A stretch of 49,040 nt of DNA from Pseudolabrys sp. (GTDB lineage Bacteria > Pseudomonadota > Alphaproteobacteria > Rhizobiales > Xanthobacteraceae): positions 1 through 49,040 of the forward strand of contig JALHNV010000017.1 of assembly GCA_022843325.1 (NCBI GenBank), given 5' to 3'. This document shows positions 6,202 through 21,397 of this stretch, piece after piece; within the stretch, counting starts at the first letter, position 1, and each line of letters begins with the position of its first letter. Below the pieces are notes generated by a model, which was not told the origin of the DNA, searched no databases, and was given only the letters and a program-made list of their open reading frames with translations. Both the position numbers and the translations under genes were made by a program.

Positions 6202-8541
6202 ATGTCGGATACAGAATTCAGGTTTGCCGGCCGCCGCGAAGATCGTCGCTTCATCACCGGCGAAGGCCGTTATACCAATGACTGGAATCTTCCCGGCCAG
6301 GTCCATGCCTGTTTCCGCCGGTCCGACCGGGCACACGCCATCATCGCGTCAATCGACACCGAGGCCGCCGGCAAGGCTCCCGGGGTCCTCGCCGTTCTAA
6401 CGGGCCGTGACGTCGCCAATGCCGGATTTGCCAGTGTGCCGCCGATTTCGCCGCCGCCCGGCCGTGGCGGACAGGGCATCCGCGCGCCGCAACGTCCGGT
6501 GCTGGCACGGGATCGCGTGCGCTTTACGGGCGAGGAAGTCGCCATCGTCGTCGCCGAAACTGCTGCGGCGGCACGCGATGCGGCGGAACTGATCGAAATC
6601 GATTACGAGGATCTCCCGGTCCTGATCGGGGCCGAGCGCGCGATGGCGGCGGATGCCGTCGCCATTCACGACAACATCCCCGGCAATGTCTGCTTCGACT
6701 TCGACTATGGGGATGAACAGAAGACCAATGACGCCTTCGCCCGTGCCGCCGGCATTGTGTCGCTGACAGCGGAAAGTCCGCGCGTCGCGCCGACGCCGAT
6801 GGAAGTACGCGGCGCGCTCGTGGCCTATGACGCGGCCGCTGACGCCTACGACTTCTACAGCCCCAATCAAGGCGGCCCGGCCTTCCGCCATGAGCTGGCG
6901 GTGATGTCCGGCATACCGGAGGACAAAATCCGCGTTCGCATGCTGGATGTCGGCGGCGCCTTTGGTGCGCGGAACGCGCCTTTCCCGGAATATCCGCTGC
7001 TGATGCTGTTGGCGAAACGGCTGCAGCGTCCGGTCAAATGGCTGTCGACGCGCTCGGAAGATTTCCTCACCGACAATCACGGACGCGCGGTTTCACTCAA
7101 GGGTGAGCTGGCCTACGACGCAAACGGAAAGTTCCTGGCGTTTAGGACCGAGTGGCTGTGCGATTCCGGCGCCTATCTTGTGCCGCCCGCCGTCTTCACC
7201 AATTCGAACAACGGCCGGGTGATTGCCGCGGGCGCCTACCAGGTCGAGGCGTTCTACGGTCGCCACCGGCAGGTGATTACCAACACATCGCCGACCAGCG
7301 CCTATCGCGGCGCAGGCCGACCCGAAGCGAACTACATCATTGAACGGCTGGTCGACGAGGCGGCGGTCAAGCTGAGCATCGACCCCCTGGAATTGCGCCG
7401 CCGCAACGTGCTGAAGAAGGCCCAGTTTCCCTACCTCACGCTGACCGGTGCGCGCTTCGACAGCGCCGATTTTCCCGGGCTGATCGCCAAGGTGAAGGAC
7501 TTGTCCGACTGGAAGGGATTTGGCGTACGCCGGCGCCAGTCGCGCAAGAGCGGAAAGCTGCGCGGCATCGGCGGCGCCGTTTTCATCGAGCCGTCGGGTG
7601 GCGGCGGCATGAAAAAGGACGAAGTCGCTGTGCTGTTCAACAAGGACGGCTCGGTCACCATTCACAATGTCGCGGGGCCGAGCGGGCAGGGCCACGAGAC
7701 CGTCTTTCCGGAAATGGTGGCCCGCTGGCTCGGCATCGATGCGGACAAGGTGACCTTGAAGTCCGGCGATCCGGAGGGGCCGCATCTGATCGGCCATCCA
7801 TCGATCGGCTCGCGTTCCGCGATGTCGCAGGGCAGCGCCTACAAGATCGCCTCCGACCTGATCATCGGCAAGGCGAAGGAGATCGCCGCCGACGAGCTGG
7901 AATCCAGTCCGGGCGATATCGTGTTTGCCGATGGTGTTTTCACGATTGCCGGCACCGACCGGACCATGAGCATGACGGCGGTCATGGAAAAGGCCCGGGC
8001 TCTCGGGTCGAACCCTCTGGACACGATCGCCGAGCGCGCGATCTCGCAGGCCTTCCCGAGCGGCGCGCATGTTGTCGAGGTCGAGATCGATCCGGATACC
8101 GGTACGGTTGACGTCGTCAGCTATGTCGCGGTCGACGATATCGGCAATGTCATCAATCCGGTGCTGGCCGACGGTCAGGTCGTCGGCGGCATCGTCCAGG
8201 GCGCGGGACAGGTGTTCGGCGAATATTGTCAGTACGATACGACCGACGGTCAATTGCTGACCGGCAGCTTCATGGATTACTGCATGCCGCGCGCGCACCT
8301 CATTCCGAAGGTCAGCGTCTTCAATCATGTCGTGCCGAGCCCGAACAATCCGCTCGGCGTCAAGGGCGTCGGCGAAGCCGGATCGACCGGCAGCCTGCCA
8401 GCCTGCATGAATGCGATCATGAACGCCTTGCGCACCGTCGGCGTCACGCGGTTCGACATGCCGGCGACGCCGGCGCGAGTCTGGGCTGCGATGGCTGCCG
8501 CCAAGCCGGCTGTTCCGGCCCCGTCCGCCGCGACGACATGA
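6202..8541 (+). CDS. Xanthine dehydrogenase-family molybdopterin-binding subunit (CoxL-like), complete
   Basis: A 779-residue complete large subunit of a molybdenum hydroxylase. It opens with the typical RFAGRREDRRFITGEGRYTNDW and hammerhead domain (about residues 20-160), then the Mo-binding part with GGAFGARNA (about 250), AYRGAGR (about 370, the non-CO-dehydrogenase form), SGQGHETV and the C-terminal GVGEAG with the catalytic Glu. ATG start preceded by GGGGTAAG. Normal length, no breaks. Neither an FAD subunit (CoxM-like) nor a 2Fe-2S subunit (CoxS-like) adjoins it: the Bug gene lies on one side and nasT on the other, so it must share partners encoded elsewhere, perhaps upstream of the first hydroxylase, or be unusual. 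The two large subunits in this window are clearly different proteins. Substrate unknown. Confidence 0.92.
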   Translation: MSDTEFRFAGRREDRRFITGEGRYTNDWNLPGQVHACFRRSDRAHAIIASIDTEAAGKAPGVLAVLTGRDVANAGFASVPPISPPPGRGGQGIRAPQRPVLARDRVRFTGEEVAIVVAETAAAARDAAELIEIDYEDLPVLIGAERAMAADAVAIHDNIPGNVCFDFDYGDEQKTNDAFARAAGIVSLTAESPRVAPTPMEVRGALVAYDAAADAYDFYSPNQGGPAFRHELAVMSGIPEDKIRVRMLDVGGAFGARNAPFPEYPLLMLLAKRLQRPVKWLSTRSEDFLTDNHGRAVSLKGELAYDANGKFLAFRTEWLCDSGAYLVPPAVFTNSNNGRVIAAGAYQVEAFYGRHRQVITNTSPTSAYRGAGRPEANYIIERLVDEAAVKLSIDPLELRRRNVLKKAQFPYLTLTGARFDSADFPGLIAKVKDLSDWKGFGVRRRQSRKSGKLRGIGGAVFIEPSGGGGMKKDEVAVLFNKDGSVTIHNVAGPSGQGHETVFPEMVARWLGIDADKVTLKSGDPEGPHLIGHPSIGSRSAMSQGSAYKIASDLIIGKAKEIAADELESSPGDIVFADGVFTIAGTDRTMSMTAVMEKARALGSNPLDTIAERAISQAFPSGAHVVEVEIDPDTGTVDVVSYVAVDDIGNVINPVLADGQVVGGIVQGAGQVFGEYCQYDTTDGQLLTGSFMDYCMPRAHLIPKVSVFNHVVPSPNNPLGVKGVGEAGSTGSLPACMNAIMNALRTVGVTRFDMPATPARVWAAMAAAKPAVPAPSAATT

Positions 8542-8592
8542 TGGCGCGCCGGTTGCATCGGAGACCGCAGGTGCCGGACCGGCGCCCCTAGG

Positions 8593-8608
8593 TGGCACGG
8601 TCTTTGCT
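8593..8608 (+). promoter_or_regulatory. Sigma-54 (RpoN) promoter of nasTS
   Basis: TGGCAC at 8593-8598, five bases, TTGCT at 8604-8608: an exact match to the -24/-12 consensus TGGCAC-N5-TTGCW. The transcript would start near 8618, eight bases before the first hairpin of the nasT leader. RpoN control fits nitrogen regulation by NtrC. I could not identify an NtrC site in the 51 bases between the upstream gene and this promoter. Confidence 0.8.
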
Positions 8609-8625
8609 CGGTTCAGGCGGTACGA

Positions 8626-8662
8626 TTGCCCAATGGCGGGCAGCGCGCCGGCACCGTCGCCG
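8626..8662 (+). promoter_or_regulatory. ANTAR-type dual-hairpin element in the nasT leader
   Basis: Hairpin 1 is UGCCC-AAUGGC-GGGCA (8627-8642; five pairs plus a flanking U-G). Hairpin 2 is CGGC-ACCGUC-GCCG (8649-8662). Both have six-base loops with A at position 1 and G at position 4, the recognised signature of RNA bound by ANTAR antiterminators. The linker is six bases. The 3' part of hairpin 2 overlaps CGTCG (8655-8659), which could instead pair with CGACG (8673-8677) followed by ATTTTC, a weak terminator candidate. This suggests NasT acts on its own transcript. Confidence 0.55.
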
Positions 8663-8776
8663 TCTCCTTGATCGACGATTTTCTGACATCGCGCCGGGGT
8701 CGCCGGGGCGATGAAAGACGCCGCGGCTGCGGCATCTTTGCCCCGGCCGCCGCCTGACGCATGGAATGGCTCTTGC

Positions 8777-9499
8777 ATGACAGGGACGTCGAAACCCTCT
8801 TTACGGGACCACCGCTCGCGCGCAGGCGGGACGGCGGCGGAGAGCTTTGATTTGACGGAGACGCGAAAGGGTTCTGACTCCTCAAGCCCCGGCTCGCAGC
8901 CGCAGGGCGGGCAACGCGATTCCACGCTCAAGATCGTGATCGTGGATGAAAGCCCGATCCGCGCCGCCATCCTCGAAGACGGACTGCGCGAGGCCGGCTT
9001 CACCCAGGTCCAGCGCATCGCCGAGACCCACAATCTGCTCGCCCGGGTCTATGCCATCGACCCGGATGTCATCCTGATCGACCTGGAAAGTCCGAGCCGC
9101 GACATGCTCGAGCAGATGTTCCAGATGAGCCGTGCGGTCAAACGGCCGGTGGCAATGTTCGTCGACCAGAGCGACAGCGCCTCCATCCAGGCGGCGGTCG
9201 ATGCCGGCGTGTCGGCCTACATCGTCGGCGGTCTCAAGAAAGAGCGCATCACCAGCATCCTCGACCTCTGCATCTCACGCTTCAATGCCTTCGCGCGCCT
9301 GCAAGGCGAGCTCGATCAGGCCAAGGACGCGCTGGCCGACCGCAAGGTCATCGATCGGGCCAAGGCCGTCCTGATGAAGGTCAAGAAGATGAGCGAGGAA
9401 GAAGCCTATGCGATGCTGCGCAAGACGGCGATGAATGAGAACAAGAAGATCGCCGAGATCGCACAGTCGGTACTGACGGCGGCGGAGATGTTCAAATGA
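8777..9499 (+). CDS. nasT: NasT, ANTAR-domain transcription antiterminator
   Basis: Nitrate-responsive antiterminator: a receiver-like N-terminal domain (from LKIVIVDESPIRAAI) and a C-terminal ANTAR RNA-binding domain (DRKVIDRAKAVLMK... EEEAYAMLRKTAMN) joined by a helical linker. NasT binds paired hexaloop hairpins in leader RNA and prevents termination; NasS holds it inactive without nitrate. The start is uncertain. The open frame runs from ATG 8711, but 8711 lies inside a strong hairpin (arms GCCGGGGC 8702-8709 and GCCCCGGC 8740-8747). ATG 8777 gives 240 residues with about 48 disordered residues ahead of the receiver domain, longer than the roughly 195 residues usual for NasT; in-frame TTG 8852 would give a more normal length. 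The stop overlaps nasS by four bases (ATGA), implying tight co-translation of the pair. Confidence 0.9.
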   Translation: MTGTSKPSLRDHRSRAGGTAAESFDLTETRKGSDSSSPGSQPQGGQRDSTLKIVIVDESPIRAAILEDGLREAGFTQVQRIAETHNLLARVYAIDPDVILIDLESPSRDMLEQMFQMSRAVKRPVAMFVDQSDSASIQAAVDAGVSAYIVGGLKKERITSILDLCISRFNAFARLQGELDQAKDALADRKVIDRAKAVLMKVKKMSEEEAYAMLRKTAMNENKKIAEIAQSVLTAAEMFK

Positions 9500-10686
9500 G
9501 TGCCGGCAAGCTGCGCATCGGTTATATCCCTCTGGTCGACGCGGCGGCGCTGATCGTCGCGGTCGATCTGGGCTTCACGGCCGCCGAGAACCTCGACATC
9601 GAACTTGTCCGGGAAGTGTCATGGTCGAACGTGCGCGACAAGCTCAATATCGGCTTGTTCGACGCCGCCCATCTGCTCGCCCCCGTTTCGGTTTCGTCGA
9701 GCCTGGGCATCGGTCATGTCCGGGTGCCGATCGTTGTGCCCTTTAATCTCGGGCTGAATGGCAATGCCATCACGCTGTCGCCGCGTCTGTATTCGGCCCT
9801 GTCCGGGCTTGCGGACGGCGATATTGCCGATCCCAAAGTGTCGGCGCTGGCGCTGGCGCGGGTGGTGGCGGAGCGCAAGACGCGCAACGCCGAACCGCTG
9901 ACCTTCGGCATGACCTTTCCGTTTTCGCACCACAATTACCAACTGCGCTATTGGATGGCGGCGGGCGGCGTCGATCCGGATGAGGATGTCCGGCTCGTTG
10001 TGTTGCCGCCGCCTTACATGGTCGAAAGCCTGACCAGCGGACATGTCGATGGCTTTTGCGTCGGCGCGCCCTGGAATTCGGTGGCGGTGGACGCCGGCAT
10101 CGGCCGAATCTTGCATTTCGGTTGCGAGATCCAGGCACGCATGACCGAGAAGGTGTTCGGCGTCCGGGAGAGCTGGGCCATCGAGCATCCTGACACGCTG
10201 GCCGCGATGATCCGCGCGCTGTCGGCGGCGGCGAATTTCGCCGAAGCGCCGGAGAATCTCGCAGCCGTTTCGACGGCCATCGCCGGCCGGCTTGGCGTGA
10301 CGCCGGAGCTGGTTGGCCGCGCGCTCACCGGTAACATGAAAGTCGCAGCCGACGGTCACCTGCGCCTGAACGGCCGGTACCTGAATATCGGCAAGAACGG
10401 CGCCGCGCGTCCCGACCCGGTTCAGGCCGCCTGGATCTATGCGCAGATCGTGCGCTGGGGGCAGGCGCCGCTGGCGGATGAATCGCTCAAACTGGCGCAG
10501 GCTGTGTTCCGCCCCGATTTGTTCGATGCCGCCGTTGGCGCTCCACAGCCGCTCGGGCCTGACGAACCCGGCGACGGTATCGGCGCTTTCATCGGGCCGG
10601 CTTTCAACCCGGCCGATATCGCCGGGCATCTGATGTATTGGCGCATCAAGCATCCGGGCCGGCCGCGTCTGTCGCTCGTGCGCTGA
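9496..10686 (+). CDS. nasS: NasS, cytoplasmic nitrate/nitrite sensor of the NrtA/CmpA fold
   Basis: A 396-residue NrtA/CmpA-family solute-binding-fold protein with no signal peptide: it begins directly with LRIGYIPLVDAAALIVA. That, and the overlap with nasT, identifies NasS, the nitrate sensor that sequesters NasT in the cytoplasm and releases it on nitrate binding, as shown for Azotobacter, Paracoccus and Bradyrhizobium homologues. Family landmarks are WSNVRDKL and DAAHLLAP near the N-terminus, the TFPFSHHNYQLRYWMA segment (about 138-153), which is equivalent to the ligand region of NrtA, and DGFCVGAPWN. The nrtA gene downstream is its secreted paralogue. ATG start within the nasT stop overlap. 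Confidence 0.92.
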   Translation: MSAGKLRIGYIPLVDAAALIVAVDLGFTAAENLDIELVREVSWSNVRDKLNIGLFDAAHLLAPVSVSSSLGIGHVRVPIVVPFNLGLNGNAITLSPRLYSALSGLADGDIADPKVSALALARVVAERKTRNAEPLTFGMTFPFSHHNYQLRYWMAAGGVDPDEDVRLVVLPPPYMVESLTSGHVDGFCVGAPWNSVAVDAGIGRILHFGCEIQARMTEKVFGVRESWAIEHPDTLAAMIRALSAAANFAEAPENLAAVSTAIAGRLGVTPELVGRALTGNMKVAADGHLRLNGRYLNIGKNGAARPDPVQAAWIYAQIVRWGQAPLADESLKLAQAVFRPDLFDAAVGAPQPLGPDEPGDGIGAFIGPAFNPADIAGHLMYWRIKHPGRPRLSLVR

Positions 10687-10818
10687 GTTATTGCATTGCA
10701 CAATAAATGCGCATGCTGCGCCGCGGGTAAGCAGCCGCACCCCCGCAGGCCCCGGTCTGCCCCCAGCGCTTCGCATTAAGCGACTGAATTGATTGACGGC
10801 AGGCGCCGCGGCCGGACT

Positions 10819-10834
10819 TGGCACGGCGCTTGTA
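10819..10834 (+). promoter_or_regulatory. Sigma-54-type promoter of the nrtA-cysG operon
   Basis: TGGCAC (10819-10824), five bases, TTGTA (10830-10834), preceded by T as in the extended consensus. Spacing is exact; the only deviation is T for C in the -12 GC. Predicted start is near 10844, which puts the whole hairpin/terminator cassette in the leader RNA. The near-identical element ahead of nasT supports the call. Confidence 0.65.
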
Positions 10835-10875
10835 TAGAACTGTTCGAGACGCGCCGCCTCCGGCCTCGCGCCTCG

Positions 10876-10907
10876 GGTCCAATGACGGGCCATTAGCAAC
10901 GCCGCTG
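10876..10907 (+). promoter_or_regulatory. ANTAR/NasT-type dual-hairpin antitermination element in nrtA leader
   Basis: Hairpin 1 is GGUCC-AAUGAC-GGGCC (10876-10891; four Watson-Crick pairs and one G-U). Hairpin 2 is UAGC-AACGCC-GCUG (10894-10907; closed by a U-G pair). Both loops have six bases with A1 and G4, as ANTAR proteins require. The 3' half of hairpin 2 (10901-10907) is also the beginning of the terminator stem, so the two folds exclude each other: NasT bound to the hairpins would block termination. Confidence 0.75.
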
Positions 10908-10955
10908 TCCTGGGGAGGAGCGCATTTTTTGCGCCTCGGGACTGCGGCTTTTTTT
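10901..10955 (+). terminator. Intrinsic terminator/attenuator in nrtA leader
   Basis: GCCGC (10901-10905) pairs with GCGGC (10944-10948), then GTCC (10907-10910) with GGAC (10939-10942); after an internal purine-rich loop, GCGCA (10920-10924) pairs with TGCGC (10930-10934) around a T5 loop. The stem is followed directly by seven T (10949-10955). It lies upstream of any usable nrtA start, the expected place for an attenuator. Confidence 0.85.
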
Positions 10956-11005
10956 ATGTGCCGACGGCAGACCGGGTCACTCGAATGAAAAGGACGAACA
11001 CTCCG

Positions 11006-12313
11006 ATGACGACGACAGGCAAAAAGGGCATCAGCCGGCGGTCCCTTCTCAAGGCGGGCGCGGGGACAGCCGCCCTGATGAGCGCGATCGGAACACAGTT
11101 TCCATTCGGCGTGCATGTCGCCGAAGCGTCGGGACCGGAAGTGACCAAGGCGGTTCTTGGCTATATCGCGCTGATGGATGCCTCGCCGCTGGTTATCGCC
11201 AAGGAAAAGGGCATCTTCGCCAAATACGGCATGCCGGATGTCGAAGTCTCGAAGCAGGCGTCGTGGGGCGCCACACGCGACAACATGGTGCTCGGCGGCG
11301 CCGCCAACGGCATTGATGGCGCGCACATCCTGACGCCGATGCCGTACCTGATCTCGGCCGGCAAGGTGACGCAGAACAATGTGCCGACGCCCATGTACAT
11401 CCTGGCGCGGCTCAATCTCGATGCCCAGGCGATTTCGGTCTCCAACGAATACAAGGACCTCAAGGTCACCGGCGACGCCTCGCCGCTCAAGGCCGCCTTC
11501 GCCGCCAAGAAGGCGGCCGGCAAGGAAGTGAAGGTCGCCATGACCTTCCCCGGCGGCACCCACGACCTGTGGATTCGCTATTGGCTCGCCGCCGCCGGCA
11601 TCGATCCCGACAAGGACGTCTCGACCATCGTCGTGCCGCCGCCGCAGATGGTGGCGAACATGAAGGTCGGCAACATGGACGCCTTCTGCGTCGGCGAGCC
11701 CTGGGGCGAGCAACTCGTCAACCAGGGCATCGGCTACACGGCGTGCAGCACCGGCGAAATCTGGGAAAAGCATCCGGAAAAGGCGCTCGGCATGCGCGCC
11801 GACTGGGTCGACAAGAATCCGAATGCCGCCAAGGCCTTGCTGATGGCGGTGATGGAAGCCCAGCAGTGGTGCGACAAGCCGGAGAACCGGCAGGAAATGT
11901 CGACCATCGTCGGCAAGCGGCAATGGTTCAACGTGCCGGTCGCCGACATCATCGGCCGCGCCAAGGGCGACATCAATTACGGCAACGGCCGGGTCGAGAA
12001 GGGCACCAAGCAGTTCATGAAGTTCTGGCAGGACCACGCGTCCTACCCGTTCAAGAGCCATGACGCCTGGTTCGTCACCGAAGACATCCGGTGGGGCAAG
12101 TTCGAGCCGGCCACGGACGTCAAGGCGATGGTCGACAAGGTGAACCGCGAGGACCTGTGGCGCGACGCCGCCAAGGCGCTTTCGGTTGCCGCCGCCGATA
12201 TTCCGGCGTCGTCCTCGCGCGGCAAGGAGACCTTCTTCGACGGCAAGGTGTTCGATCCGGAGAATCCGTCGGCCTATCTCAAGGCCCTCAGCATCAAGCG
12301 CGTCGAAGTCTGA
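11006..12313 (+). CDS. nrtA: NrtA, periplasmic nitrate-binding protein of ABC transporter (Tat signal)
   Basis: Nitrate/nitrite receptor of the NrtABC importer, CmpA/NrtA family. It starts with a twin-arginine signal (KGISRRSLLKAGAGTAALM) and then the binding fold from VTKAVLGYIALMDASPLVIA; WGATRDNMVLG, TFPGGTHDLWIRYWLAAAG and DAFCVGEPWGEQL are family landmarks. Three in-frame starts exist: GTG 10958 (abuts the terminator T-run), ATG 10985 and ATG 11006. The last is chosen because AAAAGGAC lies 11 bases upstream and it leaves a compact Tat signal; it gives 435 residues. First gene of the long nrtA-cysG operon, behind the NasT-controlled attenuator. Carbonate or other oxyanions are conceivable for the family, but the genes downstream make nitrate near certain. 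Confidence 0.93.
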   Translation: MTTTGKKGISRRSLLKAGAGTAALMSAIGTQFPFGVHVAEASGPEVTKAVLGYIALMDASPLVIAKEKGIFAKYGMPDVEVSKQASWGATRDNMVLGGAANGIDGAHILTPMPYLISAGKVTQNNVPTPMYILARLNLDAQAISVSNEYKDLKVTGDASPLKAAFAAKKAAGKEVKVAMTFPGGTHDLWIRYWLAAAGIDPDKDVSTIVVPPPQMVANMKVGNMDAFCVGEPWGEQLVNQGIGYTACSTGEIWEKHPEKALGMRADWVDKNPNAAKALLMAVMEAQQWCDKPENRQEMSTIVGKRQWFNVPVADIIGRAKGDINYGNGRVEKGTKQFMKFWQDHASYPFKSHDAWFVTEDIRWGKFEPATDVKAMVDKVNREDLWRDAAKALSVAAADIPASSSRGKETFFDGKVFDPENPSAYLKALSIKRVEV

Positions 12314-12375: not shown

Positions 12376-13284
12376 ATGAACATGCCAGTGGCGAAATCCG
12401 AAATCTCGGGCCGCATATTTGCGGCGCCGACCACGCCTGTCGCTGCCAAAGTCCTGCCGTTGCCGGTCAAGCAGAAGCCGATCAACACGCGCGCCCGCGA
12501 CACGTTCGGCAAGATCGCCGCCACCGTGGTCCCGCCGGTGGTGATGGTCCTGCTGTTGCTGACGGTGTGGCAGGTGCTGTGCATGCGCCCCGGCGCCACG
12601 CTGCCGCCGCCGAGCAAGATCTGGACCGAGGCCTACGACCTGATCGTCGATCCGTTCTTTGTCGCCGGCCCGCAGGACATCGGGCTCGGCTGGCGCGTCC
12701 TGGTCTCGCTGGAACGCGTCGCCATCGGCTATGGCCTGGCGGCTGTGTTCGGCATCGCTCTGGGCACGCTGGTCGGCCAGTCGGTCTGGGCAATGCGCGG
12801 ACTGGACCCGATCTTCCAGGTGCTGCGCACGATTTCGCCCCTGGCCTGGCTGCCGATTTCGCTGGCGGCGTTTCGCGACAGCCAGCCGTCGGCGATCTTC
12901 GTGATCTTCATCACATCGGTCTGGCCGATCATCATCAACACAGCGGTTGGCATCCGCAACATCCCGCAGGATTACCGCAACGTCGCTGCCGTTTTGCGGC
13001 TTAACCCGCTCGAGTTCTTCGGCAAGATCATGATCCCGTCGGCCGCTCCGTACATCTTCACGGGCCTGCGCATCGGCATCGGCCTGTCGTGGCTGGCGAT
13101 CGTCGCCGCGGAAATGCTGACCGGCGGTGTCGGCATCGGTTTCTTCATCTGGGACGCCTGGAATTCGTCGCGGCTGCCCGACATCTTCATCGCGCTCGCC
13201 TACATCGGCATCGTCGGCTTCATCCTCGACCGCATCGTGGCCGGCGTCGCGTCGATCGTCACGCGCGGCACCGCAGCCAACTAG
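12376..13284 (+). CDS. nrtB: NrtB, nitrate ABC transporter permease
   Basis: A 302-residue inner-membrane permease of the NrtB/CmpB/SsuC type. After a charged N-terminal tail of about 45 residues come a first membrane span (VVPPVVMVLLLLTVWQVL), the family motif LPPPSKIWTEA, and further spans. The EAA-type cytoplasmic loop that contacts the ATPase is the NPLEFFGKIMIPSAAPYIFT region. ATG at 12376 with CGGAG ten bases upstream; the long upstream open frame is read-through of a different frame over nrtA and is not coding. It is separated from nrtA by a strong hairpin and from the ATPase gene by 12 bases. Confidence 0.93.
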   Translation: MNMPVAKSEISGRIFAAPTTPVAAKVLPLPVKQKPINTRARDTFGKIAATVVPPVVMVLLLLTVWQVLCMRPGATLPPPSKIWTEAYDLIVDPFFVAGPQDIGLGWRVLVSLERVAIGYGLAAVFGIALGTLVGQSVWAMRGLDPIFQVLRTISPLAWLPISLAAFRDSQPSAIFVIFITSVWPIIINTAVGIRNIPQDYRNVAAVLRLNPLEFFGKIMIPSAAPYIFTGLRIGIGLSWLAIVAAEMLTGGVGIGFFIWDAWNSSRLPDIFIALAYIGIVGFILDRIVAGVASIVTRGTAAN

Positions 13285-13296
13285 GGAAACACAACC

Positions 13297-14091
13297 ATGA
13301 CCGCTTATTGCAGGATCAGCCACGTCGACAAGGTCTACAAGCGCGGCAGCACCGAGACCTGCGTGCTCAAGGAGATCACCCTCGATATCGAGAAGGGCGA
13401 ATACGTCTCCATTATCGGGCACTCGGGCTGCGGAAAGTCGACGCTGCTCAATATCGTCGCCGGCCTGACGCCCGCCACCAACGGCGGCGTCATTCTCGAG
13501 GGCCGCGAGGTCAACGATCCGGGGCCGGACCGCGCCGTGGTGTTCCAGAACCACAGCCTGCTGCCCTGGCTCACCGTCTACGACAACGTCAAGCTCGCGG
13601 TCGACAAGGTCTGCTCGGCGACAAAGTCGCGCGCCGAACGGCACGCCTGGACCATCCACAATCTCGATCTGGTGCAGATGACGCACGCCAAGGACAAGCG
13701 CCCGTCGGAGATTTCCGGCGGCATGAAGCAGCGCGTCGGGCTGGCCCGGGCGCTGGCGATGGAGCCGAAGATCCTGCTGCTCGACGAGCCGTTCGGCGCG
13801 CTCGACGCGCTGACCCGCGCCCATCTGCAGGACACCGTGATGGGTCTGCACCAGAAGCTCGGCAACACCGTGATGATGATCACGCACGACGTCGACGAGG
13901 CGGTGCTGCTGTCCGATCGCATCATCATGATGACCAACGGTCCATCGGCGCAGATCGGCGAAATCCTGCCGGTGCCGCTGGCGCGGCCGCGCAAGCGGCT
14001 TGAGCTGGTGGCGGATGCCACGTTCCTGAAGTGCCGCCAGCGCGTGCTCGAGTTCCTGTACGAACGGCACCAGTTCGTCGAGGCGGCATGA
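13297..14091 (+). CDS. nrtC: Nitrate ABC transporter ATP-binding protein (NrtC/NrtD-like)
   Basis: A 264-residue ATPase that drives nitrate import with NrtA and NrtB. Walker A GHSGCGKST (about residues 42-50), Q-loop VVFQNHSLLPWLTV, signature SGGMKQRV, Walker B ILLLDEPFGALDA and the switch histidine in MMITHDVDEAV are all intact. It has no NrtA-like C-terminal extension, so by size it matches cyanobacterial NrtD rather than the long NrtC; here a single ATPase type presumably forms a homodimer. Start ATG 13297 preceded by AGGGAAA. The stop overlaps the next start by four bases (ATGA). Confidence 0.92.
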   Translation: MTAYCRISHVDKVYKRGSTETCVLKEITLDIEKGEYVSIIGHSGCGKSTLLNIVAGLTPATNGGVILEGREVNDPGPDRAVVFQNHSLLPWLTVYDNVKLAVDKVCSATKSRAERHAWTIHNLDLVQMTHAKDKRPSEISGGMKQRVGLARALAMEPKILLLDEPFGALDALTRAHLQDTVMGLHQKLGNTVMMITHDVDEAVLLSDRIIMMTNGPSAQIGEILPVPLARPRKRLELVADATFLKCRQRVLEFLYERHQFVEAA

Positions 14092-15317
14092 GCGAGCCGC
14101 TCGTCATCATCGGCAATGGCATGGCCACGATGCGGCTGGTCGAGGAGCTGAACCGGCGCGCGCTCGGCCGCTACGCCATCGCTGTGGTCGGGGAGGAGCC
14201 GCGGCTCGCCTATAACCGTGTGCTGCTGTCGTCGGTGCTGGCGCGCGAAGTGTCGCGCAGCGACATCGAGTTGAAGTCCGCGCAGTGGTGGCGCGCCCAT
14301 GGCGTCACCGTGATGTACGGGCAGCGCGCGGTGGCGGTGGACTGCGATATTCGCCGGGTGCGGCTCGCCAATGGCGCCACATTGCCCTTCGCCAAGCTGG
14401 TTCTCGCCACGGGCTCGAAAGCGATCCGGCTGAATGTGCCGGGCATGGATTTGCCGGGCGTCATGACGTTCCGCGATCTCAGCGACGTCGCGTCGATCGA
14501 GACGGCGACGCAGACGCATCGCAAGGCGGTGGTGATCGGCGGCGGTCTGCTCGGTCTCGAAGCGGCCTACGGGCTGATGAAAGCAGGCCTGCAGGTTTCG
14601 GTGGTGCATTTGATGGACCGCCTGATGGAGCGGCAGCTCGACGCGCGCGCCTCTGCCCTGCTGCAGGCCGCGGTGGAAGCGAGAGGCATCGCGGTGCATC
14701 TCAATGCCGAAACCGCCGCCATCACGGGCCACCAGCGGGCCGAGGCGGTAGCGCTCAGGGACGGTCGCATCATCGGGACCGACCTGGTGGTGGTCGCCGC
14801 CGGCATCCGCGCCAACAGCGATCTGGCCACCACCGCCGGTCTCGACATCAACCGCGGCATTGTCGCCGACGACTGCCTGCAAACCAGCAAAGCCGGCATT
14901 TTCGTCATCGGCGAATGCGCCGAGCACCGCGGCATCTGTTACGGCCTCGTCGAGCCGGCTTACGAGCAGGCGCGCATTTTGGCCGCGCATCTGTGCGGCG
15001 AGACGGTGCGGTACCAGGGCAGCGTGCTGGCCACCAATCTCAAGGTGTCGGGCGTCAACGTGTTTTCCGCCGGCGACTTCATGGGCGGGCCCGGCACCGA
15101 GAGCATCGTGCTCAGCGATCCCGGCCTCGGCAGCTACAAGAAACTGGTGCTGGCGGGCGGGAAGCTGGCCGGCGCCGTGTTGTTCGGCGATACCGCCGAC
15201 GGGCTCTGGTATCTCGATCTGATCCGTTCCGGCGCGCCGGTCGGGACGATGCGCGGCGAACTCATTTTCGGTCGCGCGCTGACCGAACGCGCCCACCCCA
15301 AAGAACTGGCGGCGTGA
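14088..15317 (+). CDS. FAD/NAD(P)H oxidoreductase of NirB-N-terminal/NasC type, nitrate reductase electron-transfer subunit
   Basis: A 409-residue pyridine-nucleotide-disulfide-oxidoreductase-fold flavoprotein, similar to the N-terminal FAD/NADH half of NirB and to Klebsiella NasC. It has an N-terminal FAD motif (LVIIGNGMATMRLVEEL), the NAD(P)H-binding repeat KAVVIGGGLLGLEAAYGL (about 146-163), and IFVIGECAEHRG for the second FAD contact. It lacks the siroheme/4Fe-4S half of NirB. NasA in this operon ends in a bacterioferritin-associated-ferredoxin-like 2Fe-2S domain, so the simplest role is to pass electrons from NAD(P)H to NasA. ATG overlaps the nrtC stop; nirA follows after four bases. Confidence 0.87.
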   Translation: MSEPLVIIGNGMATMRLVEELNRRALGRYAIAVVGEEPRLAYNRVLLSSVLAREVSRSDIELKSAQWWRAHGVTVMYGQRAVAVDCDIRRVRLANGATLPFAKLVLATGSKAIRLNVPGMDLPGVMTFRDLSDVASIETATQTHRKAVVIGGGLLGLEAAYGLMKAGLQVSVVHLMDRLMERQLDARASALLQAAVEARGIAVHLNAETAAITGHQRAEAVALRDGRIIGTDLVVVAAGIRANSDLATTAGLDINRGIVADDCLQTSKAGIFVIGECAEHRGICYGLVEPAYEQARILAAHLCGETVRYQGSVLATNLKVSGVNVFSAGDFMGGPGTESIVLSDPGLGSYKKLVLAGGKLAGAVLFGDTADGLWYLDLIRSGAPVGTMRGELIFGRALTERAHPKELAA

Positions 15318-15321
15318 GGCG

Positions 15322-17088
15322 ATGTCCAGCGATTTCACCCCGGACCAGAAACGCTATCTCGAAGGCTTCGCCTCGGGCCTGAGCGCGGCGCGGGCCGCAC
15401 GGGGCCAGTTGCCGGCAGGCACGGGCGGCGGCGAACCGGCAGGGCCCGACGCCATACACATCAAGGCGCAGGATCGCACGGTCGCTGCCGGCGGGAAGTT
15501 GGCCGATCAGGAGAAGATCAAGCGCGAGCAGCATCCGTTCGACGCCTACGACCGCCTGAAGAGCCAAGCCCGCGACAACGCCGCGCCGAAGCCGGCCGAC
15601 AATTTCCGCTGGCGCTATTACGGCCTGTTCTACGTCGCGCCGGCGCAGACCTCGTACATGTGCCGGCTGCGCATCCCGAACGGCATCCTGACGCACTGGC
15701 AGTTCGCCGGGCTGGCCGATCTCACCGACCGCTGCGCCGGCCCGTATTCTCACGTGACCACGCGCGCCAATTTGCAGATCCGCGAGATCGAGCCGAAGAA
15801 CGCCATCGACGTGGTCGAGGGCATCCTCGACCTCGGCCTGTGCTCGCGCGGTACCGGCGCCGACAACATCCGCAACGTCACCGGCACGCCGACCGCGGGC
15901 ATCGATCCCCAGGAACTGCTCGACACGCGGCCTTATGCGCGGGAGTGGCATCACCACATTCTCAACCAGCGCGTCCTGTACGGGCTGCCGCGCAAGTTCA
16001 ATGTCGGCTTCGACGGGGCGGGGCGCATTCCCGTGCTGGAAGACACCAACGACATCGGCTTCCAGGCGGTCGAGGTGAAGGACGGCTTTGGCGTCGAGCC
16101 CGGCATCTGGTTCCGACTGGCGCTGGGCGGCATCACCGGCCACCGCGATTTCGCCCGCGACACCGGCGTCATTCTCAAGCCGGCGGAGGCGACGCAGGTG
16201 GCCGACGCCATCGTGCGCGTCTATATCGAGCATGGCGACCGCACCGACCGCAACAAGTCGCGGCTGAAATATGTGCTCGACGCCTGGGGCTTCGAGAAAT
16301 TCCTCGCGCATGTCGAGCAGACGCTCGGCCGCAAGCTGATTTATGTGCCGGCCGAAGCCATCGCGCCGCGGCCGCAATACGACCGCAGCGCGCATATCGG
16401 CGTTCATCCGCAGAAGCAGACCGGCCTGAACTGGATCGGCGTGGTGTTTCCGGTGGCGAAGATCACCACCGATCAGATGCGCGGGCTTGCCAGGATCGCG
16501 CAGGATCTGGGCGACGGCGATATCCGGCTCACCGTTTGGCAAAACCTTCTGATTTCGGGTGTTGCCGACGACAAGGTCCGGCTGGCTGTCGCCGCCATCG
16601 AGGCGCTGGGACTGACGACGCAGGCGACGCCGATCCGCACCGGGCTCATCGCCTGCACCGGCGCGACCGGTTGCCGCTTCGCCGCCGCGCATACCAAGGA
16701 ACATGCCGAAGAGATCGCGCAATGGTGCGAGCCGCGCGTCAAGCTGGACGGGCCGGTGAACATTCACCTTACCGGCTGCCATCATTCCTGCGCGCAGCAT
16801 TACATCGGCGATATCGGCCTGATCGCCTGCAAGGTTGATGTCGGCGAGGAGGCCGATCCGGTCGAGGGCTATCATATTCTGGTCGGCGGCGGCTTCGGGC
16901 CGGATGTCGGGCTGGCGCGCGATCTTTACCGCGACGTCAAGGCGCCGGACGTGCCGCGCACGATCGAGCGCATGCTGAACGGCTATCTTGCGCATCGCGC
17001 CGGCAAGGACGAGACGTTTCTGGCCTTCTCGCGGCGGCATGAGGTGGAAGCACTGAAGGGCCTGTTCGGCGCGGAGGCGGGGGAATGA
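15322..17088 (+). CDS. nirA: NirA-type siroheme nitrite reductase
   Basis: A 588-residue assimilatory nitrite reductase of the ferredoxin-nitrite/sulfite reductase superfamily, reducing nitrite to ammonium with six electrons in the cytoplasm. Two half-domain repeats are present; the siroheme-4Fe-4S ligands are CTGATGC (about residues 444-450) and CHHSC (about 485-489), arranged CX5C...CX3C. FRWRYYGLFYVAP and HVTTRANLQIRE are typical. It carries an N-terminal extension of about 90 residues starting with DQKRYLEGFASGL, which resembles the beginning of the next protein. Siroheme would come from cysG at the operon end. It overlaps the flavoprotein gene by four bases, suggesting a NADPH-fed nitrite reductase pair instead of free ferredoxin. 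Sulfite is the alternative substrate but unlikely in this operon. Confidence 0.9.
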   Translation: MSSDFTPDQKRYLEGFASGLSAARAARGQLPAGTGGGEPAGPDAIHIKAQDRTVAAGGKLADQEKIKREQHPFDAYDRLKSQARDNAAPKPADNFRWRYYGLFYVAPAQTSYMCRLRIPNGILTHWQFAGLADLTDRCAGPYSHVTTRANLQIREIEPKNAIDVVEGILDLGLCSRGTGADNIRNVTGTPTAGIDPQELLDTRPYAREWHHHILNQRVLYGLPRKFNVGFDGAGRIPVLEDTNDIGFQAVEVKDGFGVEPGIWFRLALGGITGHRDFARDTGVILKPAEATQVADAIVRVYIEHGDRTDRNKSRLKYVLDAWGFEKFLAHVEQTLGRKLIYVPAEAIAPRPQYDRSAHIGVHPQKQTGLNWIGVVFPVAKITTDQMRGLARIAQDLGDGDIRLTVWQNLLISGVADDKVRLAVAAIEALGLTTQATPIRTGLIACTGATGCRFAAAHTKEHAEEIAQWCEPRVKLDGPVNIHLTGCHHSCAQHYIGDIGLIACKVDVGEEADPVEGYHILVGGGFGPDVGLARDLYRDVKAPDVPRTIERMLNGYLAHRAGKDETFLAFSRRHEVEALKGLFGAEAGE

Positions 17089-18707
17089 CCCAAAACGTTC
17101 CGCCGCCGCTGCCGACTCTGGTGCCCGAGACCGCACCGTTCTCCGACGAGCAGCGCAACTGGCTCAACGGCTTCTTCGCCGGGCTGATCGCGCTCGACAA
17201 CAGCGGTGTAACGGCGCTGTCGGCGGATCAGGCGGTGGCGCTGCTGTCGGGCGCGCCGCCGGGCGCTGCCGCCGCGGACGACGATGACGGCGGCGCGCCG
17301 TGGCACGACCAGACCATCCCGCTGGCCGAACGCATGAAGCTCGCCGACGGCCAGCCGTTGCGTTGGAAGATGATGGCGGCGATGGCGCAGCAGGACTGCG
17401 GCCAGTGCGGTTACGATTGCAAGAACTACTCGGGAGCCATTGTTTCCGGCGCGGAGACGCGGCTGAATTTGTGCGTGCCGGGCGGCAAGGAAACCGCCCG
17501 CATGGTCAAGGCGCTCTACGAAGAGCTCAAGGCCGCGCCGGCGGCGGCAGCGCCGGCCGCCGCGCCGGCTGCAGTGGCCGCGCCATCCGGCTCGCCCGGT
17601 TCGTCACGCGACAATCCATCGACGGTCACGGTGCTGTCGCGGACGCTGCTGAACAAGCCCGGTTCTGCGAAGGAGACCTGGCACGTCGAACTCGACCTGA
17701 CCGGCTCCGGCATTTCCTATGACGTCGGCGATGCTTTCGGGCTCTACCCGCACAACGATCCGGCGCTGGTCGATCTGGTGACCAAGGCGCTCGCCGCGCC
17801 GGCCGATTTTCCGATCGGCGGGCGGACGTTGCATGACGTGCTGACCGACAGCGTCTCCTTGTCGCCGGCCCCCGACATGCTGTTTCAACTGTTCTCCTAC
17901 ATCGCCGGCGGCGAGCGCCGCCGCAAGGCGCGCGCGCTGGCGACCGGCGAGGATCCCGATGGCGATGCCCCGACGCTGGACGTATTGGCGGCGATTGAGA
18001 AATTCCCCGGCGTGCGTCCCGATCCGGAAGCCTTTGTTGAATCCCTCGATCCGTTGCAGCCGCGGCTTTATTCGATCTCGTCGTCGCCCAAGACCGACCC
18101 GAACCGCGTCACGCTCACCGTCGATACCGTGCGCTACAATATTGCAAACCGGCAGCGCCTCGGCGTCTGCTCGACGCTGCTGGCGGAGCGCATCGATCCG
18201 GGCCATGTGCTGAAGGCCTATGTGCAGAAGGCGCATGCCTTCGCGCTGCCGGCCGACCCTCGTGTGCCGGTTATCATGATCGGGCCCGGCACCGGCGTCG
18301 CGCCCTTCCGCGCCTTCCTGCACGACCGCAAGGCCGACCGCGCGCCCGGCCGCAACTGGCTGTTCTTCGGGCATCAGCGCTCGTCTTGCGACTTCTTCTA
18401 CGAAGACGAGCTCAAGGAGATGAAGGCGTCCGGTCTGCTGACGCGGCTGTCGCTGGCCTGGTCGCGCGACGGCGAGCAGAAATTCTACGTGCAGGACCGT
18501 ATGCGCGAGTCCGGTGCCGACCTGTGGGCGTGGCTCACGGATGGCGCGCACGTTTATGTCTGCGGCGACGCCAAGCGTATGGCCAAGGATGTTGAACTGG
18601 CGCTGGTCGATATCGTCGCCCAGCACGGCGGCCGCAGCGGCGAGGAGGCGGTGCTGTTCGTCTCCGATCTGAAGAAAAAAGGCCGCTACCAGCAGGATGT
18701 TTATTGA
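17085..18707 (+). CDS. CysJ-like flavoprotein with Fe-S domain instead of flavodoxin domain; likely electron donor of NirA
   Basis: A 540-residue electron-transfer protein. Order: a short N-terminal helix motif (EQRNWLNGFFAGL), a Fe-S domain of the RnfB/AcsC FeS type with CGQCGYDC (C104, C107, C112) and a fourth Cys near 129 (LCVPGG), a Pro/Ala-rich linker (about 145-180), then a CysJ/P450-reductase-type FAD domain (RLYSISSSP, GVCSTLLAERI) and an NADPH domain (GPGTGVAPFRAFL, FFGHQRSSCDFFYEDEL, YVCGDAKRMAKDVE, ending QQDVY). The FMN/flavodoxin domain of CysJ is absent. Placement between nirA and nasA with four- and one-base overlaps argues that it feeds NADPH electrons to NirA, possibly also to NasA. 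Often annotated as sulfite reductase subunit alpha, which would be misleading here. Confidence 0.88.
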   Translation: MTQNVPPPLPTLVPETAPFSDEQRNWLNGFFAGLIALDNSGVTALSADQAVALLSGAPPGAAAADDDDGGAPWHDQTIPLAERMKLADGQPLRWKMMAAMAQQDCGQCGYDCKNYSGAIVSGAETRLNLCVPGGKETARMVKALYEELKAAPAAAAPAAAPAAVAAPSGSPGSSRDNPSTVTVLSRTLLNKPGSAKETWHVELDLTGSGISYDVGDAFGLYPHNDPALVDLVTKALAAPADFPIGGRTLHDVLTDSVSLSPAPDMLFQLFSYIAGGERRRKARALATGEDPDGDAPTLDVLAAIEKFPGVRPDPEAFVESLDPLQPRLYSISSSPKTDPNRVTLTVDTVRYNIANRQRLGVCSTLLAERIDPGHVLKAYVQKAHAFALPADPRVPVIMIGPGTGVAPFRAFLHDRKADRAPGRNWLFFGHQRSSCDFFYEDELKEMKASGLLTRLSLAWSRDGEQKFYVQDRMRESGADLWAWLTDGAHVYVCGDAKRMAKDVELALVDIVAQHGGRSGEEAVLFVSDLKKKGRYQQDVY

Positions 18708-21397
18708 TGAACGCCCCCGCGCAGCATCCGCCGGCCGTGCGCACGACGTGCCCCTATTGCGGCGTCGGGTGCGGTGTGCTGGCCAAGCCGGACGGACGCG
18801 GCGGCGCGATGATTGCCGGCGACCCGGAGCACCCGGCGAATTTCGGCCGGCTGTGCTCGAAAGGCTCGGCGCTGGGCGAAACGCTGGCGCTGGGCACGCG
18901 GCTGCTGCACCCGATGCTGCGGCAGGGCGATACGCTGGTGCGCGCCGGCTGGGACCAGGCGCTCGATCGGGTGGCCGGCGGATTTGCCCGTACCGTCGCG
19001 CAGCACGGGCCGGACTCGGTGGCGTTCTATCTCTCCGGACAATTGCTGACCGAGGACTATTACGTCGCCAACAAGCTGATGAAGGGTTTCATCGGCACCG
19101 CCAATGTCGATACCAATTCGCGCCTGTGCATGGCCTCGTCGGTGGCCGGGCATCGCCGCGCCTTCGGCGCCGATACCGTGCCCGGCGCCTATGCCGATCT
19201 CGACGACGCCGATCTTATCGTGCTGGTCGGCTCGAACGCCGCCTGGTGCCATCCGGTGCTCTATCAGCGCATGGTGGCCAACAAGCGCGCGCGCGGCGCC
19301 CGGCTGATCGTCATCGATCCGCGCCGCACCGCGACCGCGGAGGAGGCCGATCTGTTCCTGCCGGTCGCGCCCGGCATGGACACGGCGCTGTTCTGCGGGC
19401 TGCTGGTGCATCTGGCCGAGACGCTTGCCTTCGACTTCGAATACCTCGATGCGCATACGACCGGTCTGCCGGATGCACTGGCGCGGGCGCGCGAGATCGC
19501 GCCGGACGCGACGGCCACGGCGAAAATGACCGGACTGGCGCCGGCCGATGTCGCGCAGTTCTTTGCGATGTTCACCGCGACGCCGCAGGTGGTCACCTGT
19601 TTTTCGCAAGGCGTGAACCAGTCGGCGCAGGGCACCGACAAGGTCACGTCGATCATCAACTGCCATCTGGCCACCGGCCGCATCGGCAGGCCGGGCATGG
19701 GGCCGTTCTCGCTCACCGGGCAGCCCAATGCGATGGGCGGACGGGAAGTCGGCGGGCTCGCCAACCAACTTGCCGCGCACATGAGTTTTACCGCGCCGGA
19801 GATCGACCGCGTCGGGCGGTTCTGGAACGCCGGGACGATGGCGATGCGCGAGGGCCTCAAAGCGGTCGATATGTTCGACGCCATCGGGCGCGGCGAGATC
19901 AAGGCCTTGTGGGTGATGGCGACCAATCCGGCGGTATCGCTGCCGCGCGCCGGCCATGTGCGCGCGGCGCTTTCAAAGCTCGATCTGCTGGTGATTTCCG
20001 AGAATGTCACCGGCAACGACACGGTGCGCAGCCACGCCCATGTGCTGCTGCCGGCCGCCGCCTGGGGCGAGAAGGACGGCACCGTCACCAATTCGGAGCG
20101 GCGCATCTCGCGCCAGCGGCCTTTCCTCGGCCTGCCGGGCGACGCGCGGCCGGACTGGTGGATCGTTACGCAGGTGGCGCGGCGTATGGGGTTCGGCGAG
20201 GCCTTTCCCTATGAATGCGCGGCCGATGTGTTTCGCGAACACGCGGCGCTGTCCGCCTTCGAGAACGACGGCGCGCGTGATTTTGATATCGGCGGGCTCG
20301 CCTCCCTGAGCGACGACCAGTTCAATGCGCTGGCGCCGGTGCAATGGCCGGCGCGCGCCGGAGTCGCGGCGCAGGATACGCGTTTTTTTGGCGCCGGCCG
20401 GTTTTTCACGCCCGGCGGCAAGGCGCGCATGGTCGCGCCGGAGATGCCACGCCCGCAGGCCCCATTGTCGCGCGACTATCCGTTCCGTCTCAACACCGGC
20501 CGCATCCGCGACCAGTGGCACACCATGACGCGCACCGGCCTGAGCCCGCGGCTTGGCGCGCATCTGCCGGAGCCCTTCGTCGAGGTGCATCCGGACGATG
20601 CGGGCGAGATGCAACTGACCCATGACGGCTTCGCGCGCGTCACGTCGCCGTATGGCACCTGCGTGCTCAAGGTCGTGGTCAGCGCGGGCCAGCAGCGCGG
20701 CTCGCTGTTCGCGCCGATCCACTGGAGCGGCGAAACGGCATCCTCCGCCCGCATCGGCGAACTGGTGACGCCGGCCAACGATCCGTTTTCCGGCCAGCCG
20801 GAAGCGAAGGCCTCGCCGGCCGCGATCGCGCCGGTCGATTACAGCTATCGCGGCTTCGCGCTGTCGCGCCAGCGGCTCACCCTGGCGCCCGGTACGTGGT
20901 GGGCGCGCGCCGCGGTGGCCGGCGGCGAGGGGCTCATGTTCGCCAGCAATGACACACCGGAGCTCTGGCGCGCGCGCGGGCCCGCGATGTTCGGGGCGGA
21001 TTGCGAGATCGCGGAATTCGTCGACGAGCCGGGCGGCGGCTACCGCATGGCGGCTTTCGTCGAAGGCCGTCTGACCGGATGCCTGTTCATCGGTCCGGCC
21101 GCGGCCGCGCCGCACTGGGACGCCGTCAAGGCGCTGTTTGAATCGGAAAGCCTGGGCGAGACTCAGCGCCGCGCCGTGCTGTCGGGCAGGTCGACCGACG
21201 GGCTGGCCGATCCCGGTCCGGTCGTTTGCGCCTGCTTTGGCGTCGGCCTGAACGTGATCCGCGCCGCCATCGCCGGCGGTCTCGCGGCCAGTGTTGCGGA
21301 AATCGGCACCGCGTTGCGCGCCGGCACCAATTGCGGGTCGTGCCTGCCCGAACTGAAAAGGATCGTCAGCGATGGCCGTGTTCCGCAAACCGTCTGA
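18707..21397 (+). CDS. nasA: NasA, assimilatory nitrate reductase catalytic subunit
   Basis: An 896-residue cytoplasmic molybdenum bis-MGD enzyme reducing nitrate to nitrite. The 4Fe-4S motif is at C15, C18, C22 and C50 (TTCPYCGVGC...RLCSKG). The molybdopterin core runs to about residue 680 and includes MASSVAGHRRAFGADT and NQSAQGTDK. The C-terminal part ends in a bacterioferritin-associated-ferredoxin-like 2Fe-2S domain with VCACF and TNCGSC (Cys at about 841, 843, 876 and 879), as in Klebsiella NasA; that domain receives electrons from a NasC-type flavoprotein. ATG 18707 shares one base with the stop of the preceding gene (TGATG); a TTG three bases upstream is less likely. No signal peptide. 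The 3' end overlaps cysG by 26 bases. Confidence 0.94.
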   Translation: MNAPAQHPPAVRTTCPYCGVGCGVLAKPDGRGGAMIAGDPEHPANFGRLCSKGSALGETLALGTRLLHPMLRQGDTLVRAGWDQALDRVAGGFARTVAQHGPDSVAFYLSGQLLTEDYYVANKLMKGFIGTANVDTNSRLCMASSVAGHRRAFGADTVPGAYADLDDADLIVLVGSNAAWCHPVLYQRMVANKRARGARLIVIDPRRTATAEEADLFLPVAPGMDTALFCGLLVHLAETLAFDFEYLDAHTTGLPDALARAREIAPDATATAKMTGLAPADVAQFFAMFTATPQVVTCFSQGVNQSAQGTDKVTSIINCHLATGRIGRPGMGPFSLTGQPNAMGGREVGGLANQLAAHMSFTAPEIDRVGRFWNAGTMAMREGLKAVDMFDAIGRGEIKALWVMATNPAVSLPRAGHVRAALSKLDLLVISENVTGNDTVRSHAHVLLPAAAWGEKDGTVTNSERRISRQRPFLGLPGDARPDWWIVTQVARRMGFGEAFPYECAADVFREHAALSAFENDGARDFDIGGLASLSDDQFNALAPVQWPARAGVAAQDTRFFGAGRFFTPGGKARMVAPEMPRPQAPLSRDYPFRLNTGRIRDQWHTMTRTGLSPRLGAHLPEPFVEVHPDDAGEMQLTHDGFARVTSPYGTCVLKVVVSAGQQRGSLFAPIHWSGETASSARIGELVTPANDPFSGQPEAKASPAAIAPVDYSYRGFALSRQRLTLAPGTWWARAAVAGGEGLMFASNDTPELWRARGPAMFGADCEIAEFVDEPGGGYRMAAFVEGRLTGCLFIGPAAAAPHWDAVKALFESESLGETQRRAVLSGRSTDGLADPGPVVCACFGVGLNVIRAAIAGGLAASVAEIGTALRAGTNCGSCLPELKRIVSDGRVPQTV

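Follow-up and report, generated by a model that had tools for sequence, protein, structure and literature searches.

Described systems and the nrtA locus

The closest described systems are the NasS-NasT systems of Paracoccus denitrificans and Bradyrhizobium diazoefficiens. They have the same two regulators as the locus studied here and, in the available parts of the papers, paired hairpins in a leader, for which binding by NasT is reported or proposed (PMC3795266, PMC5424462, PMC6759348). In P. denitrificans, the nitrate-assimilation operon lies beside nasTS, as it does here, and NasT was reported to shift the nasA leader RNA (PMC3795266). According to the available text, expression of nasA-lacZ on nitrate drops severely when leader hairpin HI is mutated, and a strain with the HI mutation on the chromosome resembles a nasT mutant in that it no longer grows on nitrate; mutation of HII, the second leader hairpin, has little effect on nitrate (PMC5424462). 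The two hairpins therefore need not be of equal importance. For the nasA leader, the accessible portion of the Paracoccus work names no nitrogen-control input. The NasS-NasT system of B. diazoefficiens controls nos and nap genes, as far as the available text describes it (PMC6759348). Compared with these two species as described there, nrtA of an ABC importer comes first here, the terminator is a plain one with a T7 tract, and the element is preceded, at about 54 nt, by a sigma-54-type site.

Two further ANTAR systems are similar, as far as the accessible parts of the papers go. The EutV dual-hexaloop antiterminator of the Enterococcus faecalis eut leaders has the same two hairpins with six-base loops, A at position 1 and G at position 4 (A1/G4), and a short linker (PMC3369931, PMC8934654). 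There too the second hairpin overlaps the terminator, and the residues of EutV that contact G4 are kept in NasT. The EutV signal is ethanolamine through EutW phosphorylation, whereas here it would be nitrate through NasS. Klebsiella NasR at nasF is likewise a case of nitrate-responsive ANTAR antitermination in a nitrate-assimilation leader; NasR senses nitrate by its own NIT domain, whereas the sensor NasS and the RNA binder NasT are separate here (PMC3369936). ANTAR leaders before many nitrogen genes are already known from the available text of the same paper. NasST antitermination is already described as a kind of switch, and the nrtA leader of this group is a new, well-supported case of it. 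No description of the nrtA leader in this group was found in the literature searched, with supplements and most subscription papers lying outside the search.

The window, that is, the whole 49,040-nt stretch of Pseudolabrys sp. DNA that was analysed, belongs to a genome of 3.88 Mb in 137 contigs that is 94% complete. The features of a NasS-NasT system were found in it: a NasT with receiver and ANTAR domains, and an adjoining NrtA-like soluble NasS. The nasT gene (8711–9499, + strand) encodes a response-regulator receiver and ANTAR RNA-binding protein (Pfam ANTAR 4.2e-20, Response_reg 7.6e-10), which is the sole ANTAR protein found in the genome. The best solved relative of NasT is EutV 6wsh (E 2.8e-19), in an alignment that spans the length of NasT; the closest named relatives among the matches listed come from Pseudolabrys and other Rhizobiales/Hyphomicrobiales assemblies. 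Homology of nasT to relatives begins at 8921, and the true start codon is uncertain. The open frame extends 70 codons 5' of the region common to relatives (window 8711–8930), and the closest in-frame ATG is at a distance of 48 codons. One start candidate is an in-frame TTG at 8852, within a conserved-looking stretch. The nasS gene (9496–10686, + strand), whose start overlaps the nasT end, encodes a nitrate/nitrite-sensor-like soluble NrtA paralogue (Pfam NMT1_2 6.4e-67). No TAT signal match was found in NasS, which has 30% identity to the NrtA region.

The first gene behind the switch is nrtA (11006–12313, + strand, start codon inferred), encoding the nitrate-binding protein of the ABC importer (Pfam NMT1_2 1.9e-108), with a weak TAT signal match under its cut-off. 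It is followed on the same strand by the nrtB permease and nrtC ATPase genes (12376–14091, Pfam BPD_transp_1 and ABC_tran, nrtB start inferred), by genes for an FAD oxidoreductase and a NirA-type nitrite reductase (14088–17088, assigned by Pfam; NCBIfam NirA family protein 1023.6 bits, over cut-off), and by genes for a CysJ-like flavoprotein, a molybdopterin oxidoreductase and the CysG siroheme synthase (17085–22862; CysG 513.8 bits, over cut-off). The best NCBIfam models for the molybdopterin oxidoreductase were formate dehydrogenase alpha (446.5 bits) and NasC (403.9 bits), both under cut-off; it is presumed from gene context to be the assimilatory nitrate reductase. The genes from nrtA through cysG are closely packed, to 22862, the presumed end of the controlled operon. 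Directly 3' of cysG, at window 22980–24933, frames resembling small and large terminase subunits of phage or gene-transfer-agent type were noticed by eye.

Structure and conservation of the leader

The leader between nasS and nrtA contains two hairpins on the + strand. P1 (10876–10891) reads GGTCC-AATGAC-GGGCC, with the hexaloop AAUGAC, A10881 at position 1 and G10884 at position 4. After a linker of two bases, AT (10892–10893), P2, the antiterminator hairpin (10894–10907), reads TAGC-AACGCC-GCTG, with the hexaloop AACGCC, A10898 at position 1 and G10901 at position 4. The intrinsic terminator (10901–10955, + strand), which is in the right orientation, consists of a stem at 10901–10948 and a T7 tract at 10949–10955, and its 5' arm reuses P2 bases 10901–10907. 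The original prediction had described two A1/G4 hexaloop hairpins two bases apart, then a long stem with seven T that reuses part of the second hairpin, and nasT and nasS directly upstream. The hairpins were present at exactly the predicted bases, the stem was confirmed by sequence and fold, and the two regulators were confirmed by Pfam domains.

In the lowest-energy fold of 10860–10960, P1 was kept and 10901–10948 lay in the terminator stem, not in P2. When the RNA was folded only to the end of P2 (10844–10907), P1 and P2 formed instead of the terminator. The computed energies were −6.7 kcal/mol for P1, −2.1 kcal/mol for P2 and −29.9 kcal/mol for the terminator. Since P2 is weak compared with the terminator, it would need help to survive, as an antiterminator protein would give. 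A simple terminator scan of 8400–11100 did not list the leader terminator, probably because the stem has internal loops that misfit the stem rule of the scan.

No family of the ANTAR-RNA kind in Rfam matched the leader at gathering or permissive thresholds; the sole matches were microRNA families, far under their gathering scores, and were rejected. Because no fitting Rfam family matched, covariance models were built from the leaders of relatives. A NasT scan gave 80 loci, the best 80 of 224. The training set comprised 50 leaders, window included, aligned without structure information; 50 of 52 picks were used, with L069 and L094 left out. All 50 came from searches demanding A1 and G4 in P2 (47 + 3), so the P2 conservation in this set is built in. 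Model R1 covers P1 plus terminator and was built from the training set; model R2 covers P1 and P2. R1 scored at least 33 bits in 54 of 81 nasT-locus sources (loci from the best 80 of 224), with 50 of these 54 leaders having also trained it. In the same sources, R1 matched 47/47 with an nrtA-like gene downstream within the available DNA and 7/34 without one. Two of the 27 sources without an R1 match have fewer than 700 nt after nasS.

Compensatory changes were investigated in the training set by counting cells with changes on both sides of a pair. For P1 plus terminator, 38 both-sided cells were found, compared with 16.4 in shuffles and 10–30 in slid versions of the structure, and 7 of the 13 terminator pairs had changed on both sides. 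For P1 and P2, there were 7 such cells compared with 2.0 in shuffles; they fell in 4 of the 5 P1 pairs and in none of the P2 pairs. The control slid by +3 had 10 cells and exceeded the structure, so the both-sided count alone is not decisive for P1 and P2 in this set. Paired cells made up 91.6% in the P1 and P2 structure, compared with 23.5–49.0% in slid versions, and the covariation score of 0.143 was above all slid versions (at most 0.068).

A second set was formed from 20 leaders outside the training set, 19 of them new and one a repeat (the leader of L159 repeats that of L060); 16 stretches with the element were taken from 70 R1-matched places in related genomes. The second set was aligned by fitting to the model, which favours the model; this was not so for the training set. 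For P1 plus terminator, it gave 56 both-sided cells (21.3 in shuffles, 12–21 in slid versions), with changes in 8/13 terminator pairs. For P1 and P2, it gave 19 (5.3 in shuffles, 0–3 in slid versions), with changes in 3/5 P1 pairs and 2/4 P2 pairs; two weaker measures were reached by 25 and 57 of 500 shuffles. These alignments indicate that the leader structure is conserved with compensatory changes in P1, P2 and the terminator, the second set being the cleaner test. The original prediction had named a lack of covariance support in relatives as a result that would speak against it; such support was found, with the leaders of the second set co-varying in all three parts.

Predicted promoter, element placement and NasT

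Sigma-54 promoters have −24 and −12 elements similar to TGGCAC-N5-TTGC at a constant spacing. A predicted promoter of this type, TGGCACGGCGCTTGTA (10819–10834, + strand), lies 5' of the element, and the transcription start would be expected near 10844. In it, the C of the −12 GC is T; this base is A or T in most relatives. With a consensus and scoring weights taken from general knowledge, a score of at least 18 of 24 was reached in 69 of 70 leaders, compared with 17% of resampled upstream stretches; the 70 are 69 distinct leaders, L159 repeating L060. The sites start 40–64 nt 5' of the element in 64 of 69 cases. Among the 70 leaders scored, L162 had no sigma-54-type site, and the site of L086 was poor and misplaced. 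The rpoN gene was found in the window's genome (234.9 bits), and a sigma-70 promoter scan of 8400–11100 found none. Locus L085 comes from Methylosinus sporium DSM 17706, for which the available text reports an RpoN motif or promoter 5' of nrtABC-nirAB, with these genes about twofold lower with ammonium (PMC12403871). The sigma-54-type site was a feature absent from the original prediction.

The position of the element relative to the genes was investigated in relatives in which nrtA and nasTS are apart (L068, L155–L158), and the element stays with nrtA there. The element adjoins nrtA in L068, about 1.5 kb beyond nasS, and likewise in genomes G043, G048, G055 and G060, where its distance to nasT is about 3, 3, 7 and 36 kb, respectively. 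It was also found before a distant NrtA-like protein of 31–34% identity (four of the 47 sources, plus L164 and L165), before MFS transporters (L086, L093, L161, L163 and L166), before NirA in L045 and before the FAD oxidoreductase in L062. Judged by these placements, the element goes with the first operon gene and not with the nasS end.

This bears on a simpler reading, in which the structure is a plain terminator of nasTS and nrtA is driven by a promoter further downstream. The location between nasS and nrtA fits such a reading, and the stem-loop with its T7 tract would terminate nasTS transcripts. The conserved P1 and P2 hexaloops and their compensatory changes are left unexplained by it, though, and the sigma-54-type site is 5' of the structure. 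In relatives in which nrtA is separated from nasTS, moreover, the element accompanies nrtA. A plain nasTS terminator is considered very improbable.

The NasT-responsive reading was further compared with the occurrence of NasT in 120 related genomes. NasT was counted at E < 1e-30, with 1.3e-38 for the weakest match included and 1.3e-9 for the best one excluded; the element was counted at E < 1e-5, with G081 (3.9e-4) counted as negative. NasT was found in 55 genomes and the element in 48: 46 had both, 9 NasT only, 2 the element only and 63 neither (Fisher p 1.5e-21, a value that ignores relatedness). In one NasT-only genome, G007, nasT is at a contig end. The two genomes with the element and without any ANTAR protein found are G040 and G027. 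In G040 (L160, G040:C23:135000-145000), an intact element (75.8 bits) precedes nrtA, but nasT is absent and only the nasS end is left. No ANTAR protein was found in this genome, which is 96% complete; the regulator may have been lost recently, or the assembly may have a gap there. In G027 (L161, G027:C433), the element (60.9 bits) precedes an MFS transporter, NarK-like by eye, and no ANTAR match was found; at 88% completeness, the assembly may simply lack nasT.

P1 was called without any demand on loop sequence in 69 distinct leaders, of which L036, L044 and L049 had entered through a search demanding A1/G4 in P1 too. The loop had six bases in 59 leaders, seven in 4 and five in 3, and 3 were without a call. 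Position 4 was G in 57 of the 59 six-base loops; position 1 was A in 47, G in 7 (one a miscall) and C in 5. The P1 call for L036 was wrong, and no P2 loop counts were taken from the same caller, which chose wrong P2 hairpins in several leaders. P2 was inspected by eye in 20 leaders: position 1 was A, except for G in L167 and L170, and a short loop was seen in L069 and a weak stem in L068. The A1/G4 rule of the original prediction thus stood for G4, which is nearly fixed in P1, and held less well for a strict A1. Position 1 of P1 can be C or G in relatives, in which the group differs from the EutV leaders.

This P1 pattern, with G4 fixed and A1 variable, agrees with the EutV structure, in which, as far as the available text goes, G4 stacks on Tyr164, A1 is without specific contact, and Arg142, Lys149, Glu160 and Tyr164 are reported to contact G4 (PMC8934654). 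These four residues are kept in 81, 80, 81 and 81 of 81 NasTs, respectively (loci from the best 80 of 224), and NasT differs from EutV at positions 146, 147, 173, 175 and 177 in many or all of the 81. A further difference is the lysine at EutV position 104, which is absent from 81/81 NasTs (loci from the best 80 of 224). We take it to be the conserved receiver lysine; its loss would fit control by NasS binding and not by phosphorylation.

An attenuator for another input, such as a small molecule, a translated leader peptide or an RNA-binding protein other than NasT, with hexaloops that fit the ANTAR rule by accident, was also considered. It would accommodate the two genomes with the element and without an ANTAR protein, and NasT binding in this group is a prediction. 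It is opposed by the presence of NasT in 46 of the 48 element-bearing genomes among the 120 and by the G at position 4 in 57/59 six-base P1 loops called without a sequence demand. P1 and P2 together span 32 nt, which was judged small for a ligand-binding core. An input other than NasT is considered slightly less probable still than a plain terminator.

The frequency of such structures by chance was investigated by first-order shuffling of the 301-nt leader. A comparable A1/G4 pair occurred in 35 of 20,000 shuffles, and a pair with an overlapping terminator in 1 of 20,000, at a score cut-off chosen after the site was seen. The whole window has 4 A1/G4 hairpin pairs on both strands, two on the minus strand having one hairpin in common, and only the leader pair (10876–10907) has a terminator. 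The folding energy of the leader alone was unremarkable (z = −1.75; 11/200 shuffles fold equally well). Hairpins of GC-rich DNA that satisfy an easy A1/G4 rule without any function, a reading that the other three pairs and the z value would allow, can practically be dismissed given the rarity of the full arrangement in shuffles and the contradicting conservation and covariation across relatives.

The covariance models were also searched against the window's own genome. R1 scored 82.0 bits at the leader and 21.2 bits on the opposite strand there; the next separate places scored 19.5 bits (window 8624–8739) and 18.7 bits (on contig C5). R2 scored 58.3 bits at the leader compared with 20.4 bits at the next place. 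The R1 match over 8624–8739, 5' of nasT, is weak (E 0.0077). The A1/G4 hexaloop pair in this region, at 8626–8662, is probably due to chance: it has no overlapping terminator and the stretch is not conserved, such a pair being present in the window only, among 80 loci with 400 nt 5' of nasT (loci from the best 80 of 224). The places at C5:19711 (18.7 bits) and C8:64160 (20.4 bits, R2) both overlap open reading frames and were rejected.

Proposed mechanism and possible portability of the switch

The leader is very probably a NasT-responsive transcription attenuator of the nitrate-assimilation operon nrtA-cysG. Support for this reading, which was that of the original prediction, comes from the linkage of the element to nrtA, the co-occurrence with NasT, the compensatory changes and the conserved G4-contact residues, that is, from comparison of sequences. 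For nitrate sensing by NasS, NasT binding, read-through and sigma-54 use, the mechanism proposed below follows work on other species. Sigma-54 RNA polymerase would start near 10844, presumably under nitrogen shortage, and the nascent RNA would fold into P1 and P2 as it is made. Without nitrate, NasS would hold NasT inactive, the weak P2 would yield to the terminator, and transcription would stop at the T7 tract. With nitrate or nitrite present, NasS would release NasT, which would recognise both hexaloops, chiefly via G4, and keep P2 folded. The polymerase would then go on to transcribe nrtABC, nirA, the gene for nitrate reductase and cysG.

The combination of the sigma-54-type site, presumably activated by NtrC, with the NasT element suggests an AND gate of nitrogen shortage and nitrate. 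Promoter and attenuator might even form a portable AND-gate cassette placed before unrelated first genes, in which NasT reads chiefly G4 and would tolerate the C or G found naturally at position 1 of some P1 loops, in line with the prediction from the EutV structure. This extended reading as a whole is tentative, with the balance somewhat against it. It is based on the similar spacing of promoter and element, the varied first genes, the sometimes large distance from nasTS, and one genome with nasT apparently lost.

The locus would offer a compact nitrate switch that can be read from sequence; a single regulator and a single strong target were found in the genome, and some 70 natural variants of the switch are available. 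The variants make the loop rule testable, namely, whether ANTAR proteins require A1 or can do with G4 in a loop of six bases. The study also supplies a covariance model for an RNA kind that Rfam did not report here, and it suggests a way in which nitrate sensing and nitrogen-limitation control by sigma-54 are linked in a group of soil bacteria.

A sigma-54-like site, TGGAATGGCTCTTGCA, was also seen 5' of nasT at window 8762–8777; it was near-identical by eye in 10/10 aligned upstream regions, and nasTS may share nitrogen control via this site.

A different conserved leader was observed 3' of nasS in 19 of the 27 loci without an R1 match, 16 of them labelled Bradyrhizobium (L064, L072, L083, L084 and 15 more loci; e.g., L083:6887-7026). 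No run of five T was found within the 210 nt checked in 19/19, so an intrinsic terminator may not be needed for NasT action in these loci. This leader precedes, by eye, nirA in most loci, and a sigma-54-type pattern was present in 19/19. It consists, in order, of a hairpin with both-sided changes, in most loci a small UCC-NNGAU-GGA hairpin, and then CAGC-AACGA(A/G)-GCUG, which has an A1/G4 loop.
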